9,025 nucleotides of DNA from positions 1-9,025 of the forward strand of contig JACQWU010000071.1 in NCBI GenBank assembly GCA_016209155.1, written 5' to 3'. The notes beneath the pieces were generated by a model that made no database searches, had not been told where the DNA came from, and worked only from the letters and a program-made list of their open reading frames with translations. Both the position numbers and the translations under genes were made by a program. Positions 1,133 through 9,025 of the stretch are shown here, piece after piece. Each line of letters begins with the position of its first letter. Position 1 is the first letter of the stretch. The stretch comes from Candidatus Desantisiibacteriota bacterium. Lineage in GTDB: Bacteria; JACRDZ01.

Positions 1133-2092
1133 TTGATTAATTATAAAACAGGACAACGCTTTATAAGTGAAATGGAGCCGGAACTCGGACTTGGCATCAT
1201 TAAAGAGATTGATGAACGGTTTGTCTTGATTCATTTCCCTCAAAGCGATTGTAAACGAAAATTTGCTATTTCTTCATCTCCCTTAAAACGCGTCGAATTT
1301 ATGGCCGGAGATATTGTTAAATCTCGAACCGGAGTAAGCTTCCAGGTAACTTCAATACATTCACATGACGGTATTATAATATATTATGGAAATAATAATA
1401 AACTACCTGAAAACGAGTTATCCGACAATATAAGTTTTTCAACACCTGAAGGCCGCCTTATAAGTGGTTTCATAGATAATAATAAGGATTTCAATTTAAG
1501 ATATAAAACATTAATAAACCGGTACAATTCCAAAAAATCAAGTATTCGCGGCTTTATTGGAGGAAGAATAGATTTGATTCCGCATCAGATCTATGTATCA
1601 CACGAGATTTCTTCCCGTCATATCCCCCGCGTGCTCCTGTCCGACGAAACAGGTTTGGGGAAAACCATTGAAGCATGTCTGGTTGTTCATCGTCTCCTTT
1701 TGAGCGAGAGAATATGCAGAGTTTTAATATTAGTCCCGGATTCACTGGTACATCAATGGTTTATTGAACTAATGCGCCGCTTCAATCTTATTTTTCGTAT
1801 TTTTGATAAGGAGCATTGTGAATCAATTGAATTATCCGATAATACCGCAAATCCATTTCTGGAAGATCAGCTTGGTCTTTGCAATATAGATTTTTTAACC
1901 TCAAATCCGAAATGGGGGAAAAAAGCCATTGAAGCACAATGGGATATGCTCATAATTGACGAAGCTCATCATCTAACAGTTAAAAGTCCCATGTATAACA
2001 TGGCAGAAGAGTTAAGCCGTGCTTCTAAAGGTTTGATGCTCTTGACAGCAACTCCGGAACAACTTGGACATCTCAGCCATTTTTCACTTTGA
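1133..2092 (+). pseudogene. rapA: RapA-like SNF2 ATPase, N-terminal fragment (frameshifted)
   Basis: This is the first part of a RapA (HepA) homologue, the Swi2/Snf2-family ATPase that binds RNA polymerase and recycles it after transcription. The 319 residues hold the N-terminal Tudor-like RNA-polymerase-binding region (about 1-110) and the first RecA-like lobe. Visible motifs are the Walker A box DETGLGKT (171-178), the HQW segment (207-209), the DEAHH box (276-280) and motif III TATPEQLG (305-312). The start is a TTG with a good ribosome site. After SHF (residues 315-317) the frame runs into TGA at 2090. The homologous sequence continues in the +1 frame at about 2085, but the conserved stretch that reads ARLRLLDPNRF in E. 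coli is absent. Alignment from memory suggests about 44 bp are missing. An ATPase lobe alone should not work as a translocase, so I call the gene broken. A population variant or assembly error is possible. It lies downstream of the hypothetical gene and is probably in the same operon. Confidence 0.85.
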
Positions 2093-3785
2093 ACAGGAAG
2101 AAAAACAATATTTGAATACAGTTAAAATTATCAATAAACTTATAGACAGTAAAAATTCTAATATAGAAGAATTAATTGATCAAAACGGTACAGGCAGAGC
2201 TGTATTTCGTAATACTCGAACCTCAATATCAGGCTTCCCGAAACGAGTTGCGTATATGATTCCGCTTGTCGGCAGTGAAGAAGATTTAAAACTTCAGACT
2301 TTTGAATTTATCGCTGATCAGGACAAAATTGAAAAAGAAATTACTTTTAATTACAAAAAGGATCCCAGGATAAAATGGCTTGTGCAATTTCTAAAAAAGC
2401 ATAAAAATGAAAAAGTTTTGCTTATATCTCATTCAATTAAAAAAGTTCTTGCAATTGAAGAGGTTATAAAACATAACAAGATACATATAGCATTATTTCA
2501 TGAAAAATTAACACTTTTACAAAGAGATAAAAATGCAAGCTGGTTTGCACAAACCGGCGGAGCTCAAATTCTGATTTGTTCTGAAATAGGCAGTGAGGGC
2601 AGAAATTTTCAATTTTCACATCATCTTGTATTATTCGATCTGCCGCTTAATCCTGAACTGCTGGAACAGCGAATAGGACGGCTTGACAGAATCGGACAGC
2701 AGCATGTAATTAATATTTATATCCCCTATATTATTGGAAGCGAATATGAAATAATTGCCAGATGGTATCATGAAGGAATAGACGCATTCAAAAAGAATAC
2801 CCCCGGAGTGTATCAGCTTTTTCAGGAATCGGGAGAAAAGATAAAAAAACTTGCGCTGGGAAAAAAGTTTTTAGATTTAAACCAATTTCTAAAATTCACG
2901 CAAAAACAATATGCCGGTATTGCGCAAACACTGAAAAAAGGAAGAGACCGTCTTCTGGAATTAAATTCCTTCAGACCAAAAATAGCTGAAGGTTTGATAG
3001 AAAAAATAAAAGAAGCTGATACTCTTGCCAATCTTGAAGAATATATGATTGAAATTTTTCATTTGTTTGGAATTCGGGAGGAATTGATTTCGGATCGTAC
3101 TTATAAATTAAACCTGGCGCTTTTATCAAGTCCTGAATTCCCTCTGCCATCATACAAAAAAAATGAATTAATAGTAACCTTTGACAGAAAAACCGCACTG
3201 GAAACTGAGGATATAGAATTTTTAACCTGGGATCACCCAATGGTTTTAGGAGCTATGGATTTAATACTTGCTTCTGAAAAAGGGAATTGCACAGCCGGCA
3301 TCTGGTCTTGCAAAAAAACTAAAGAAATTTTACTGGAAGCTGTTTTTGTTCTTGAATGTGTTGCTCCGAAATACCTATACATCGACCGTTTTTTACCCCC
3401 TGCCCCGCTTCGAGTTATAGTAAATCATTTGATGCAGGATTGCACTAAAAAATATCGAGCGGACTTAATTACAGAAAATATTGAAAATACCGGAACAGTA
3501 AAGATATTGGATAATGCCGTGATGAAACAGGAATTACTTCATGCAATGATTAAAGAATGCAATAAAATTGCAGATAAAAATGCTCCTGAAATTATTGATA
3601 ACGGACTTAATTTAATGAAAGCAGTTCTCACCGGGGAAGTTTCACGTCTTGTAGAATTAAAAAAAGTGAATAAAAATATAAAAGAAGAAGAAATTTCAAT
3701 TCGCAGGCAGGAAATGAAGTTATTGGAAAAAGCCATACTTTCATCCAGACTCAGATTAGATTCATTACGATTAATAATATCTTAG
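2064..3785 (+). pseudogene. rapA: RapA-like SNF2 ATPase, C-terminal fragment (frameshifted)
   Basis: This is the second part of the same RapA homologue, in the +1 frame relative to the first and overlapping it by 29 nt. True homology begins near 2088 (FEQEEKQY, matching FVEEQKNY in E. coli RapA). The TTG at 2064 is only the first possible start and lacks a convincing ribosome site. Seen in the translation are the RapA-typical NTR and GFPKR segment (about 50-61), the second RecA-like lobe with ALFHE (143-147), motif V CSEIGSEGRNFQF (172-184) and motif VI EQRIGRLDRIGQ (201-212). These are followed by the RapA C-terminal region with RWYHEG (233-238), FDRK (373-376), RFLPPAP (442-448) and the ending RLDSLRLI. 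The lobe is otherwise intact to the natural C-terminus and ends in TAG. Together the fragments span about 884 codons, against 968 in E. coli, partly because the linker after the break is short. The good conservation on both sides suggests the lesion is recent or an artefact. Confidence 0.85.
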
Positions 3786-3870: not shown

Positions 3871-4881
3871 TTAAATTTCTCCGTCGTTTCTCTTCTCTAT
3901 AATTATTTCCCAGTCAGTACGGTTAATACTTTTAACTTCCAGCACCTTATGCCCCTCGTATTCAATCGTTTTCGGCACTTCAATAACAGCCTGTTCATAA
4001 TCAATAATAATTCTTAAAACCTGACCGACTTCAAGCTCTTCCAGCGCAACTTTTGTTTTCACAAAATTATCCGGACATACTGTTCCTTTTAAATTCAGTT
4101 CTTTATCAATTTTATGTTCCTCAATAAATTTGCCGTTTAAATAATCTTTTGTTTTAGAATATTTTGGATTCTTAAAAATTTCATCTGCTTTTCCATACTC
4201 AATAATATTTCCTAAATATAAAAAAATAACATAATCCGCAAGCCGCTTTGCCTGCCTAAGATTATGAGTAACAAGTACTATTGTATATTTATTTTTAAGA
4301 TCCAGAAAACGCTGTTCAATTTTCTCTGCAGAAATAGGATCAAGCGCTGAAGTAGGTTCATCCCCCAAAATTATTTCAGGATCTGCGGCAAGTCCGCGCG
4401 CAAGGCATAATCTCTGCTGCTGCCCTATTGACAGTTTTGATGCGGGCCCGGAAAGCCTCTCCTTAACTTCATTCCATAAACCTGCCTCATTTAATTCATG
4501 CTCTACAAGCTCATCAAGTTTCTTTTTATTTTTTAATCCGTGTATCCTCGGACTATAAGCAACATTATCATAAATCGACATTGGCAGAACCTGAGGTCTT
4601 TGTGAAAGCAGTCCCATTTTTTTCCGAAGATGAGTAACTTCAATTTTTTCATCATAAATATTTTCACCGTCAACAAAAACCTGTCCTGAGACCATAACCC
4701 CGTCCTGAAGATCAATTAAACGGTTAAATGATTTTAACAATGTCGTTTTTCCACATCCCGACGGCCCTATTATTACCGTAATTTTTTTATCAGGAATATC
4801 TATATTTATATTATTCAATACCTGATGTTTTTCATACCATACATTCAAATCCTTAATACTTATATGAGTTTTAAATTTCAT
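3871..4881 (-). CDS. pstB: Phosphate ABC transporter ATPase PstB with C-terminal TusA/SirA-like domain
   Basis: This is the cytoplasmic ATPase that powers phosphate import through PstC-PstA. Residues 5-252 are a PstB-type ABC domain. It has Walker A GPSGCGKTT (39-47), a Q-loop Q94, the PstB-typical PMSIYDNVAYSPRIHG (100-115), signature LSIGQQQR (150-157), Walker B with DEPTSALDP (174-182) and the H-loop VTHN (204-207). The signature has Ile where LSGGQ has its first Gly. PstB proteins usually stop near residue 250-260; this one has 336. Residues about 262-332 match the TusA/SirA sulfur-carrier fold: LKGTVCP with the conserved Cys269-Pro270, then VKTKVALEELEVGQVL, a VP segment and EGHKVLEV. 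The frame is continuous across a short linker, so this is a real fusion in the sequence given. ATG is preceded by GGGAGA at a 7-nt gap. It is the last gene of the operon, separated from pstA by a repeat and convergent with rapA. What the extra domain does is unknown; regulation or a link to sulfur metabolism are guesses. Confidence 0.95.
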   Translation of the reverse strand: MKFKTHISIKDLNVWYEKHQVLNNINIDIPDKKITVIIGPSGCGKTTLLKSFNRLIDLQDGVMVSGQVFVDGENIYDEKIEVTHLRKKMGLLSQRPQVLPMSIYDNVAYSPRIHGLKNKKKLDELVEHELNEAGLWNEVKERLSGPASKLSIGQQQRLCLARGLAADPEIILGDEPTSALDPISAEKIEQRFLDLKNKYTIVLVTHNLRQAKRLADYVIFLYLGNIIEYGKADEIFKNPKYSKTKDYLNGKFIEEHKIDKELNLKGTVCPDNFVKTKVALEELEVGQVLRIIIDYEQAVIEVPKTIEYEGHKVLEVKSINRTDWEIIIEKRNDGEI

Positions 4882-5016: not shown

Positions 5017-5868
5017 TCACTTAACAATATTTTTATTAAATTTTTTCGCTAACATTCTTGCCGATATATTTATAAACAAAATAATAATTGTCAGTATCAG
5101 CGCTGAAGCATAGCCGCGTTCCTGAACTTCAGGGAAAGGTGTTCCCAATTGAAAAAATATCGCAAGAGGCAAAGTCGCAACCGGCTTAAACAGAGAATAT
5201 GGCAGATAATCCGTAAAACCCGCAGTAAAAAGAACTGCGGCGGCATCACCGATAGCACGGCCGAACCCAAGTAAAACTGCCGTAAGAATTCCCGGCATCG
5301 CCTGTTTAAAAATTACTTTTACCGCAGTCTCCAGTTTTGTTGCACCAAGCGCATAAGATGCTTCCTTAAGTTCCTGCGGAATCATCTTTAAAACTTCATC
5401 CATGCTTCTTGCCATAATCGGAATAATCAAAAATCCTACTGTTATTATCCCTGCAAGAAGTGAAGCCCCAAATCCAAAAAAAACCATTAAAACAAAACCG
5501 AATGCGCCATAAACAATAGACGGTATTCCCCACAATACATCAAGCGAAAAACGTATGAAAAATGCAAGCTTTGATTTCCTTTTTAAATATAAATTCAAGT
5601 AAAAAACTATTGGAACACTAATTAAAAAAGCAAACAGAGTCGCACCCAGCCCCAGAACAATGGATCCCAGGATAGCATTAAGTATTCCTCCTTCTTTACC
5701 TAAATAATATCCGCCTTTTGGAGTTTTAGTAATCATATCAAAACTTAAAGCCGGGAATCCTTTTAAAAATATAGTTACTAAAATAAAAACTATACTCCCA
5801 AAAATTATGAATGTTGAAAATATCATTAATCCTTTAAAAATATTTTCTTCTATTTTTCTTTTATCCAA
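5017..5868 (-). CDS. pstA: Phosphate ABC transporter permease PstA
   Basis: This is an inner-membrane permease that forms the phosphate channel together with PstC. The 283 residues show about six hydrophobic segments: roughly 14-35, 65-95, 112-133, 136-152, 193-217 and 252-272. The binding-protein-dependent transport EAA loop that contacts the ATPase is ELKEASYALGATKLETAVKV (166-185). RAIGDAAAVLFTAG (204-217) is the PstA/PstC-type conserved segment with Ala-Ala where PstC has Glu-Thr-Ile. Length is normal for PstA. The start is TTG, chosen because AAAGGAG lies 6 nt upstream and the residues that follow form a normal PstA N-terminus. It begins 13 nt after the pstC stop, so translation is probably coupled. 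It ends in TGA, followed by the 135-nt gap containing a palindromic repeat before pstB. Confidence 0.95.
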   Translation of the reverse strand: MDKRKIEENIFKGLMIFSTFIIFGSIVFILVTIFLKGFPALSFDMITKTPKGGYYLGKEGGILNAILGSIVLGLGATLFAFLISVPIVFYLNLYLKRKSKLAFFIRFSLDVLWGIPSIVYGAFGFVLMVFFGFGASLLAGIITVGFLIIPIMARSMDEVLKMIPQELKEASYALGATKLETAVKVIFKQAMPGILTAVLLGFGRAIGDAAAVLFTAGFTDYLPYSLFKPVATLPLAIFFQLGTPFPEVQERGYASALILTIIILFINISARMLAKKFNKNIVK

Positions 5869-5881: not shown

Positions 5882-6799
5882 TCATTCATTTTCCGACTTA
5901 AATAAAATTCCCCACCCTATAATATTAAATAAAATTGTAACAACTAATAAAATAAGCGCCGCAAGAAGAACACTGGAATCATATAAAGGAATAGACATCA
6001 TTTCTCCGTAAGTATTAGCAATTAACGCCGGCAAAGGATATGCCGTATCAAAAATGGATTTTGGAAATTCCTGAATACTGCATCCTGCAACCATTAAAAC
6101 CGCTATCGTCTCTCCGAATGCGCGGGATATACCAAGTATTATTGCGGCAATAATGCCCGGCCATGCTTTTTTTAAAACTACAAATTTTATTGTCTGCCAT
6201 CTGGTTGCGCCAAGCGCAAGCGATGTTTCTCTCATCTCAAAAGAAACTGCTCCCAGCACCTCTCCCATAACAGATACCATAAGCGGAGAAATCATTATAG
6301 CCAGAACAATACCGCCGCTTAATGCGCAAAAACCCGTGTAATTATCTGAAACAAACGGAAAAAACGGCAAATTTTCACTTAAAAAAGGCATAAGATAGTC
6401 ACGAACAAAAGGCACAACAGCAATCACTCCCCACACACCATAAATAACAGGAGAAATACCCGCAAGCAAATCAATTACCGGTTTAGTAAATTCTTTCACA
6501 CGTTTAGGCATATATTCAGAAAGATACAAACTTGTCAAAATACTTACCGGTACGGCAATAAAAACAGCAATTAAAGTAACCCATAGCGTACCTAAAATAA
6601 AGCCCGCCATACCAAATTGACCTGTTGTGGGATGCCATTTGCCTGATAAAAGTAACTGCCATAAATTTTGTACTCCTAATATCGGCTTAGCTTTTTGATA
6701 TAAAATAAAACCAATTAAAAAAGCTAAACTCAATATAAAAACACAAAATGAAAACATAATTTTTTTCGCAATTGCATCTTTAAATTTTCGGGTATTCAT
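5882..6799 (-). CDS. pstC: Phosphate ABC transporter permease PstC
   Basis: This is the inner-membrane permease partner of PstA in high-affinity phosphate import. The 305 residues begin with a short cytoplasmic basic stretch, then a membrane segment (about 14-34). A PstC-typical periplasmic stretch follows, with WHPTTGQFGMAGFILGTLWVT (55-75). Further membrane segments lie near 68-92, 115-133, 157-180, 213-240 and 273-300. The cytoplasmic EAA loop is EMRETSLALGATRWQTIKFV (188-207), and SRAFGETIAVLMVAG (225-239) is the diagnostic PstC segment. The ATG has only a weak ribosome site (AAAAGAG, 4-nt gap). It lies 213 nt after pstS, and that gap contains a palindromic repeat and a small stem-loop. 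It is followed 13 nt later by pstA. Confidence 0.95.
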   Translation of the reverse strand: MNTRKFKDAIAKKIMFSFCVFILSLAFLIGFILYQKAKPILGVQNLWQLLLSGKWHPTTGQFGMAGFILGTLWVTLIAVFIAVPVSILTSLYLSEYMPKRVKEFTKPVIDLLAGISPVIYGVWGVIAVVPFVRDYLMPFLSENLPFFPFVSDNYTGFCALSGGIVLAIMISPLMVSVMGEVLGAVSFEMRETSLALGATRWQTIKFVVLKKAWPGIIAAIILGISRAFGETIAVLMVAGCSIQEFPKSIFDTAYPLPALIANTYGEMMSIPLYDSSVLLAALILLVVTILFNIIGWGILFKSENE

Positions 6800-7012: not shown

Positions 7013-7936
7013 TTATTTTATTTCATTTAATACTTTCTCTCTATCCGCTTTTGCAAGTGACAGACTTGTTCCCACTTCGTCAACAATTTTTGTACCTTCA
7101 TCAGAAAGAGCAAACTCAATAAATTCCTTTACTAATTTTTTAGGTTTGCCTTTTACAAAAAAATAATTTTTTCTTGTTGCAGGGTATCTTCCCGCCCTTA
7201 TTGCTTTTACTGCTTCATCACGGTTGGTGTACACTTCATCAGAATCAGCAATCCCGTTTTCATTTGAATCAATAGGCACTATCCTTGCCCCGCTTACTAT
7301 AGAGCCGTCTCTGGTAAAAATATAGCTGAAATTGTTATATCCAATACCGATTGGATCTCTTGTTGCCGCCTCAAGTAAACCCGGGTCACCATAAATTCCA
7401 ACACCTCTTAAATCTTCCTGCTTTTTGCCAAAATATGCTGCCCATGAAGCAGCGGCGCCGCAGGCATCTGAACGTGTATAAACATGTAATTTTTTATTTA
7501 CTTTACGTTTAACTATACTATCCCAGGTTGTCACCAGCCCTGAAGCATAAATATCTATCCAACCCTGTTTCTTTATACCTTTTTTCAGCAAATCCTGCAA
7601 TACCGGATTTTTATTGCTTACTACAGGGAAAACAGCATCATGCAAAACATATACAGGTAAAATTCCTTTTTTCATTTCTGACGGATCAACTTCTCGGGAA
7701 ACCATTCCTATATCAACAAGACCGAAAATAGCATCAGACGCGCCTTTACCCGCGCCCCCTGCTGAAACATCGATTTTTACACCGGGATGCTTTTTCTGAA
7801 ACGCCTCACTCCATGCCACAGCAGTAGGATAAATTGCCCATGCACCGGAAAGCGTTATTGCATCCTCCGCCCTTAAAATACCGCCTGATATCAAGATAAA
7901 ACTTATCATCAATAAACCGCTAATTATTTTTTTCAT
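7013..7936 (-). CDS. pstS: Periplasmic phosphate-binding protein PstS
   Basis: This protein captures phosphate in the periplasm and delivers it to PstC-PstA. The 307 residues begin with a signal peptide (MKK, hydrophobic core 4-20, likely cleavage after LRA at residue 23). The mature protein has the PBP-like features of this family: SGAWAIYPTAVAWSEAF (30-46) in place of the usual GSTTVYP loop, SAGGAGKGASDAIFGLVDIG (58-77), TRSDACGAAASW (154-165) in the region that binds phosphate in PstS, and IGIGYNN (196-202). DSNENGIADSDE (223-234) fits an EF-hand-type loop (Asp1, Asn3, Asn5, Gly6, Asp9, Glu12). ATG has AAAGGAG 8 nt upstream; this site overlaps the stop codon of the porin frame, so the two are in one operon and may be translationally coupled. 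The binding loop differs from classical PstS, so a related oxyanion is possible, but the pst context makes phosphate most likely. Confidence 0.93.
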   Translation of the reverse strand: MKKIISGLLMISFILISGGILRAEDAITLSGAWAIYPTAVAWSEAFQKKHPGVKIDVSAGGAGKGASDAIFGLVDIGMVSREVDPSEMKKGILPVYVLHDAVFPVVSNKNPVLQDLLKKGIKKQGWIDIYASGLVTTWDSIVKRKVNKKLHVYTRSDACGAAASWAAYFGKKQEDLRGVGIYGDPGLLEAATRDPIGIGYNNFSYIFTRDGSIVSGARIVPIDSNENGIADSDEVYTNRDEAVKAIRAGRYPATRKNYFFVKGKPKKLVKEFIEFALSDEGTKIVDEVGTSLSLAKADREKVLNEIK

Positions 7937-7949
7937 TTTATCATCTCCT

Positions 7950-9025
7950 TTAAAATTGTAAAGTTACCTGCCCGATAAAAGCATTATTTTTTATATTTTT
8001 AACTTTCTCATCTTTTCGTTCATAATTAATCTGTAAAAATGCCCATTTATTAAAATACCAGTTCACACCATAAGTATAAACATCGGTTTCATCCTTTTGA
8101 ACTTTATCCTTACCGTTTGTATTTGGATCATAACTATCATATTTCAATACGCCCTGAAACGTTTTAGGAATAAAAAAATAACCGGTTTGAATATACCATC
8201 CATCCCTATTGATTATATCATCTTTACCTTTTATATATTCACCCTTTATTGAAATATCCTCTTTTACAAAAGCAATTTCAGCTCCTGACCTAATTCGAGT
8301 AGCTTTCTTTGTCAGGGCACTCGATAAAGTATAACTTCCGTTATAATATGAACCGCCAATAGATATTTCCTTCAAAGGATGAAAAACCAATCTCCCGACT
8401 AAATCTTTTCGATTATTCAAGTCTGGTTTATTTGTACCTGAACCATTAAATACTCCAAAAGCATAATCAATCGGACCAAAACCTTCTCCTATTAAAATGT
8501 TTCCACCTGCCTGAATCCCGACATCACGGCCATTCTGGTTGCCAATTACATCTTTCCCGCGCGCCGCCAATGCTTCAACTACCTGAGATCTATTAATCGT
8601 CTCCAATTTTGTGTTTGAATTTAAATTTTCCTGACTAAAAGGAATAAAAAATTGTCCAAAGTTTATTCGCAGGGATGAATTAACCTTAAAACCCAAAATC
8701 GCGTCTAACAATAATGGACCTGATGTAGGGAAATCAGATGTTTTAGGAGTAACTTTATTAACAACCTTATCGGTTTTTCCATCACTATCTTCATCTTCAG
8801 TTGTTAATGTCGTCGAAGTTACACTGGTAACCGCCGCTTTATTTTTATAATCTCCCCCAAACTCAAACTGAGTCCGGTAATCAAACCGTTCAGTAATATC
8901 TCATTGGATATTAAACCTGGCCCGCCTGATATCAAAAGTATCATTAATACTCTTGTCATTTCGATAACGCAATTGTGTGTAACCGCTTATCTTGATCGGC
9001 TTACCTGCAATCACGACAAACTCCT
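7950..9025 (-). pseudogene. Phosphate-selective porin (Porin_O_P type), in-frame TGA, 5' end outside window
   Basis: This is the outer-membrane beta-barrel expected to admit phosphate or other anions to the periplasm. One frame runs from the window edge to TAA at 7950 but has a TGA at 8901-8903. Before it are 40 codons with ISGYTQLRYRND and DIRRARFNIQ; after it come DITERFDYRTQFEFGG, LLDAILGFKVNSSLRINFGQ and FFIPFSQENL, RDVGIQAGG, YAFGVFNGSG, and alternating strands to the C-terminus VTLQF. The terminal Phe is the usual outer-membrane barrel signal. The order matches OprO/OprP-type porins, where a Gly usually stands at the stop position; GGA to TGA would explain it. The downstream piece has only internal starts (for example TTG at 8711) and would lack a signal peptide. 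It is the first visible gene of the operon, 13 nt before pstS. DEDSDGKTD (8769-8795) is a calcium-loop-like insertion. The signal peptide and promoter should lie beyond 9025. Confidence 0.85.

Follow-up and report, generated by a model that had tools for sequence, protein, structure and literature searches.

A putative sulfur-anion importer related to the Pst phosphate transporter, with a TusA-derived tail on its ATPase, in Candidatus Desantisiibacteriota

The window, which means here the whole stretch of DNA that was analysed, is 9,025 nucleotides long and represents contig JACQWU010000071.1 of a Candidatus Desantisiibacteriota bacterium. An operon was identified on its reverse strand, which encoded in order an outer-membrane porin, a binding protein, a PstC-type permease subunit, a PstA-type permease subunit and a PstB-type ATPase carrying a TusA domain (Table 1). 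Porins also preceded the same operon in L131, L132, L137, L138, L140 and L141. When the window was scanned for Rfam families, tRNAs and promoters, no RNA element was revealed and the promoter count was at chance; no sulfur-assimilation gene existed on the window contig itself. On the forward strand a RapA-type helicase was present as two overlapping frames, a Tudor and SNF2 half (1133-2092) and a Helicase_C and RapA_C half (2064-3785), thus either the gene is frameshifted or the MAG was wrongly assembled there.

Table 1. Features of the operon in the window
Feature	Position	Strand	Basis
Outer-membrane porin (Porin_O_P family), truncated at contig end, one internal stop	7950..9025	-	Pfam
PstS-like binding protein of a distinct subfamily, C159 at the PstS pocket Ser	7013..7936	-	HMM scores, pocket alignment
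PstC-type permease subunit	5882..6799	-	TIGR02138, 264.5 bits, above cut-off
PstA-type permease subunit	5017..5868	-	TIGR00974, 222.3 bits, above cut-off
PstB-type ABC ATPase with C-terminal TusA domain, 336 aa	3871..4881	-	ORF, Pfam, TIGR00972
Nucleotide-binding domain, LSIGQ replacing LSGGQ, apart from canonical PstB	4126..4881	-	Tree, motif
TusA domain, residues 260-330, with Cys269-Pro270	3892..4104	-	Pfam TusA, 1jdq match

The ATPase gene was a single frame without interruption, in which the PstB-type ATPase (residues 1-252; ABC_tran at 22-178, 99.6 bits) ran unbroken into a TusA-family tail, just as the preliminary description had proposed. The Pfam TusA profile (PF01206) was matched over its whole length (model 1-70 of 70), with 60.4 bits in the full protein and 64.3 bits for the tail alone against a cut-off of 28.6, and the place first given for the domain (3886-4098) was right to within 6 bases. 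The Cys269-Pro270 pair, the sulfur-carrying site of the family, was present as described. None of the NCBIfam equivalog cut-offs was reached by the tail (YedF, 44.6 of 79; TsuB, 34.8 of 147.5; TusA, 23.9 of 78). The solved structure nearest to the tail was TM0983 (1jdq, E 4.5e-13), and next came the YeeE(TsuA)-YeeD(TsuB) thiosulfate system. In an AlphaFold2 model built from nine sequences, of low confidence (pLDDT 62 overall, about 45-65 in the tail), residues 258-330 were arranged as beta-alpha-beta-alpha-beta-beta, which is the TusA order, and the E. coli PstSCAB ATPases were the best Foldseek matches of the ATPase-TusA model.

The fusion was found with the same junction in nine genomes. Besides the window genome, these were a Deltaproteobacteria MAG (L025) and an Omnitrophota MAG (L028), both reached when the tail was searched against species genomes, and G001 and G003 (of the window's own phylum), G404, G393, G569 and G634, which were reached with the full protein. 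An assembly artefact was rejected as the source of the fusion because the identical junction recurs across all nine; absence from related genomes had been named as evidence against the fusion, and the reverse was observed. In the tree of nucleotide-binding domains (NBDs), the ATPases of the subfamily to which the window protein belongs were split from canonical PstB (99/98), and the fused proteins all lay on one side of one weakly supported branch (51/76). The fused domains clustered together in the tree of TusA sequences (85/81), with a Nitrospinota TusA encoded directly 3' of a PiT-type permease as sister (87/81). Both topologies are compatible with one origin of the fusion. The nearest unfused TusAs, with 53-61% identity, were likewise encoded directly 3' of the PiT permease in Nitrospinota operons of the order Sir-TusA-CysH-Sat-PiT-TusA. 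The subfamily was present in 12 of 386 sampled genomes, mostly from different families, and most of its members were without TusA, so the domain is an accessory of the subfamily. Neither a TusA-PstB fusion nor Pst-type sulfate transport was found described in the open-access literature.

TusA proteins carry sulfane sulfur. The Cys-Pro pair was kept in three fused tails (window protein, L025 and G634), while in the other six of the nine the Cys was changed to Ser, Leu or Tyr or was absent; unfused or sulfite-reductase-fused TusAs kept it in 14 of 14 cases (Fisher p = 8e-4 for the difference in Cys loss, relatedness ignored). Judged from these alignments, the fused family does not conserve the catalytic Cys. 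It had been argued before that a chemical role is possible since the pair is kept, which stands for the window protein and is weakened for the family because of these six domains. The Cys-less tails were nevertheless under purifying selection, since dN/dS was 0.12-0.24 in the four measurable pairs (L028-G404, L028-G393, G404-G393 and G001-G003). The ratio of tail dN to NBD dN was about 1.2 among the Cys-bearing proteins and 1.9-5 among the Cys-less pairs, and the tail of G569 was strongly degenerate (25 bits). These nine sequences are suggestive only: an ancestral role may have depended on the Cys and would still be fully constrained in the window protein, and a role independent of the Cys may have persisted after its loss.

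Automatic annotation would call the operon a phosphate system because the PstB, PstA and PstC models were matched. The PstB cut-off (TIGR00972) was exceeded by 0.9 bits only (344.1 vs 343.2), and the binding protein stayed far under both PstS cut-offs (TIGR02136, 115.4 vs 206.6; TIGR00975, 50.9 vs 205). Its pocket was read from the alignment only, the AlphaFold2 model having a pLDDT of 38; there the PstS motifs GS-T/D, GGGS and SGT, which form the phosphate site in PstS structures, were replaced by A-W, A and C-G-A. Among the 23 subfamily binding proteins, Ala32 (22) and Trp33 (20) replaced Ser and Thr/Asp, Ala62 (21) replaced Ser, and Cys159 (20) and Ala161 (22) replaced Ser and Thr, while canonical PstS from the control loci kept the usual S, T/D, S, S, T in 10 of 10. 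C159 is the single Cys of the window's binding protein. The phosphate-discriminating Asp56 of E. coli PstS had also been considered as a kept residue; this argument was dropped because the acidic residue that follows Ser-Arg is characteristic of the subfamily, and the canonical PstS relatives aligned here were mostly without Asp at that position. Phosphate is probably not the substrate of this transporter, whose ATPase, permeases and binding protein make up a distinct subfamily derived from Pst.

With the same BLAST procedure, PhoU was found in 0 of 29 subfamily loci vs 10 of 15 canonical pst loci, and sulfur-assimilation genes (CysH, CysDNC, sulfite reductase, siroheme, MetY; families confirmed by HMM) were beside 9 of 29 vs 0 of 15, figures which serve as description and not as an unbiased test, since the 29 loci include several short contigs, two genomes give two contigs each, and some reference proteins came from the subfamily loci themselves. 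Most examples come from related Omnitrophota, which leaves a small number of independent cases (Omnitrophota, L038, L058 and L040). The clearest locus was L141 (Omnitrophota), with the order Rrf2-CysH-porin-SBP-PstC-PstA-PstB-TusA-HemA-MetY-ThiF-JAMM-Sir-TusA-CobA, where ThiS accompanies MetY and Sir-TusA is a sulfite-reductase-type protein fused to TusA. In L058, CysD-CysN-CysC lay directly upstream of the binding protein, which was followed by PstC-PstA; in L038, Sir, CobA and CysH were beside the binding protein. A haloarchaeal relative sits after a gene with the annotation putative sulfate exporter, and in L025 the fusion gene was followed by a response regulator and a histidine kinase. 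The link of the tail to sulfur that was first suspected from the window was borne out, and the transporter subfamily is tied to sulfate assimilation.

Some further genes were observed around these operons. The sulfite/nitrite-reductase-type protein with a C-terminal TusA (L141, 12743-15139) was also encoded in L128, L137 and L138, within the importer operon, and the three copies that were aligned (L141, L128 and L138) all retained the Cys-Pro pair. Rrf2-family genes were near the operon in L053 (2786-3241), L054 (11383-11841), L132 (1-282) and L141 (1887-2327), and upstream of it in L053, L054 and L141; the encoded protein is a candidate sulfur or Fe-S regulator.

A canonical pstS-C-A-B-B-phoU operon was present in full on a different contig (C40) of the window genome. 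This genome also contained SulP, and PiT beside cysDN, so the operon is not its only candidate sulfate importer; no match of the TIGR00971 type (SulT binding protein) was found in it, the operon's own binding protein being PstS-like. TIGR00971 was over its cut-off in one of the 26 subfamily genomes. PAPS_reduct was matched in 19 of the 26, and in the draft genomes of nine of these (G387, G404, G393, G569, G539, G407, G511, G003 and G724) SulP, the SulT binding protein, PiT and CysZ, the importer families searched, were all without a match over cut-off. No PAPS_reduct match was found in the other seven, several of which are incomplete MAGs and one of which (G386) bears a fusion with the Cys and a DsrE-family gene close to it. 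These seven genomes, together with SulP and PiT in the window genome, speak most strongly against reading the system simply as a sulfate importer; thiosulfate and sulfite are also possible substrates of the Pst-derived importer. A sulfur cluster was observed in the window genome on contig C166 (L039, 1889-9335), with MetY-like, ThiF, JAMM, TusA, CysD-like, CysN-like, PiT-type permease and CysK-like genes.

We consider it rather likely that the operon encodes an importer of a sulfur anion that is regulated through its TusA-derived tail. The importer would have evolved from a Pst phosphate transporter, and its substrate, destined for assimilation, would be sulfate or an inorganic sulfur anion close to it. 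A TusA of the kind encoded beside PiT-type permeases in sulfate-assimilation operons would have been fused once to the ATPase, and each ATPase of the homodimer would bear a domain that reports on sulfur status in the cytoplasm. With abundant sulfur, Cys269 would be loaded with sulfane sulfur, or the TusA domain would bind a loaded partner; ATP hydrolysis or import would then slow, a trans-inhibition as in the C-terminal domain of MetN with methionine. In relatives without the Cys, the domain could survive as a docking or allosteric element. A C-terminal domain on the importer ATPase MetN senses nutrient status, and because such sensors occur elsewhere and the context here is sulfur, a sulfur-status sensor that tunes the ATPase seems the most likely role of the tail. 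For the window protein specifically, feedback based on a persulfide is put forward tentatively. In its fullest form the proposal would place the operon in a sixth, Pst-derived class of bacterial sulfate importers, in which a fused TusA adjusts ATP-driven uptake to the sulfane-sulfur status, by a Cys269 persulfide or, in Cys-less relatives, by another ligand or partner, a sulfur carrier having become an allosteric domain; this is a conjecture which we hold with some reserve.

The operon might instead import thiosulfate or another sulfane-bearing anion, which would react directly with Cys269, the TusA domain then acting as the acceptor and carrier, in the role that TsuB has towards TsuA. TsuA-TsuB fusions exist, TsuB was the second-best solved-structure match to the tail, and uptake depends on a conserved Cys of YeeD, with which thiosulfate reacts (PMC11073785). 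The conserved Cys in the pocket region of the binding protein (20 of 23) would suit such a substrate, and so would G386, with its Cys-bearing fusion, its nearby DsrE-family gene and no PAPS reductase detected. However, the sulfur-receiving Cys is missing in most fused proteins, TusA is lacking altogether from most subfamily members, and the operon sits in clusters for sulfate activation and PAPS reduction, which thiosulfate would partly bypass. Direct sulfane reception is disfavoured as a general mechanism because of this Cys loss, and we regard the thiosulfate alternative as unlikely.

The coupling of phosphate uptake by a true phosphate transporter to sulfur metabolism through the TusA domain, which the preliminary description had offered, was not borne out and appears very improbable. 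The NBD and permeases do score above the PstB, PstA and PstC cut-offs, and the two regulatory genes after the fusion in L025 would fit it, but the margin for PstB is slight, the binding protein falls short of PstS in score and pocket residues, PhoU is missing from every subfamily locus, the subfamily is linked to sulfate assimilation, and a canonical pst-phoU operon lies elsewhere in the genome. There is likewise little probability that the tail is a functionless passenger in decay. Such a passenger would account for the six tails without Cys, for their faster evolution than the NBD and for the relatives that work without a tail, and it is possible for the degenerate domain of G569; it is not likely for the window protein, since in the Cys-bearing proteins the tail evolves hardly faster than the ATPase, and the tail is kept in several phyla with low dN/dS even where the Cys is lost.

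Compared with known systems, the operon shares with PstSCAB (E. coli, 9k3x/9k3s) its subunit composition, its PstC- and PstA-type permeases and an NBD 45% identical to E. coli PstB, and differs in the replaced pocket residues, the LSIGQ-type signature, the absence of PhoU, the TusA tail and the sulfur gene neighbourhood. MetNI (3dhw and 3tui, among the Foldseek matches) is also an ABC importer with a nutrient-status sensor at the C-terminus of its ATPase, whereas that domain has another fold and methionine as ligand. SulT (CysPTWA/Sbp) performs ABC import of sulfate, as is proposed for the window operon, with other binding-protein and permease families. In TsuA-TsuB (YeeE-YeeD), a TusA-family protein is physically tied, and sometimes fused, to a sulfur-anion transporter, and transport through TsuA depends on the Cys of that protein (PMC11073785); unlike here, TsuA is a single membrane protein and not an ABC system, and the Cys that is essential there is lost in most fusions of the Pst type.

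Bacterial sulfate transporters have been surveyed as five families, SulT, SulP, CysP, DASS and CysZ, with Pst not included (PMC5840216). What is new here is a Pst-derived importer with a newly predicted class of substrate and an undescribed accessory domain. If the prediction is true, TusA gains a regulatory function as the tail of an ABC ATPase, and annotation of the subfamily as phosphate transporters would misread phosphate biology and leave it unexplained how lineages such as Omnitrophota take up sulfate. A precedent is CysP, a sulfate permease of the PiT family, in which a family of phosphate transporters took on sulfate as substrate and lost residues specific for phosphate (PMC5840216), although CysP is a secondary transporter unrelated to ABC importers. 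It is a PiT permease gene, too, that the nearest unfused TusA follows in Nitrospinota, where the sulfate-assimilation operons (L026, 2634-3853; L027, L029 and L030) end in these two genes, which overlap in L026, L027 and L030.
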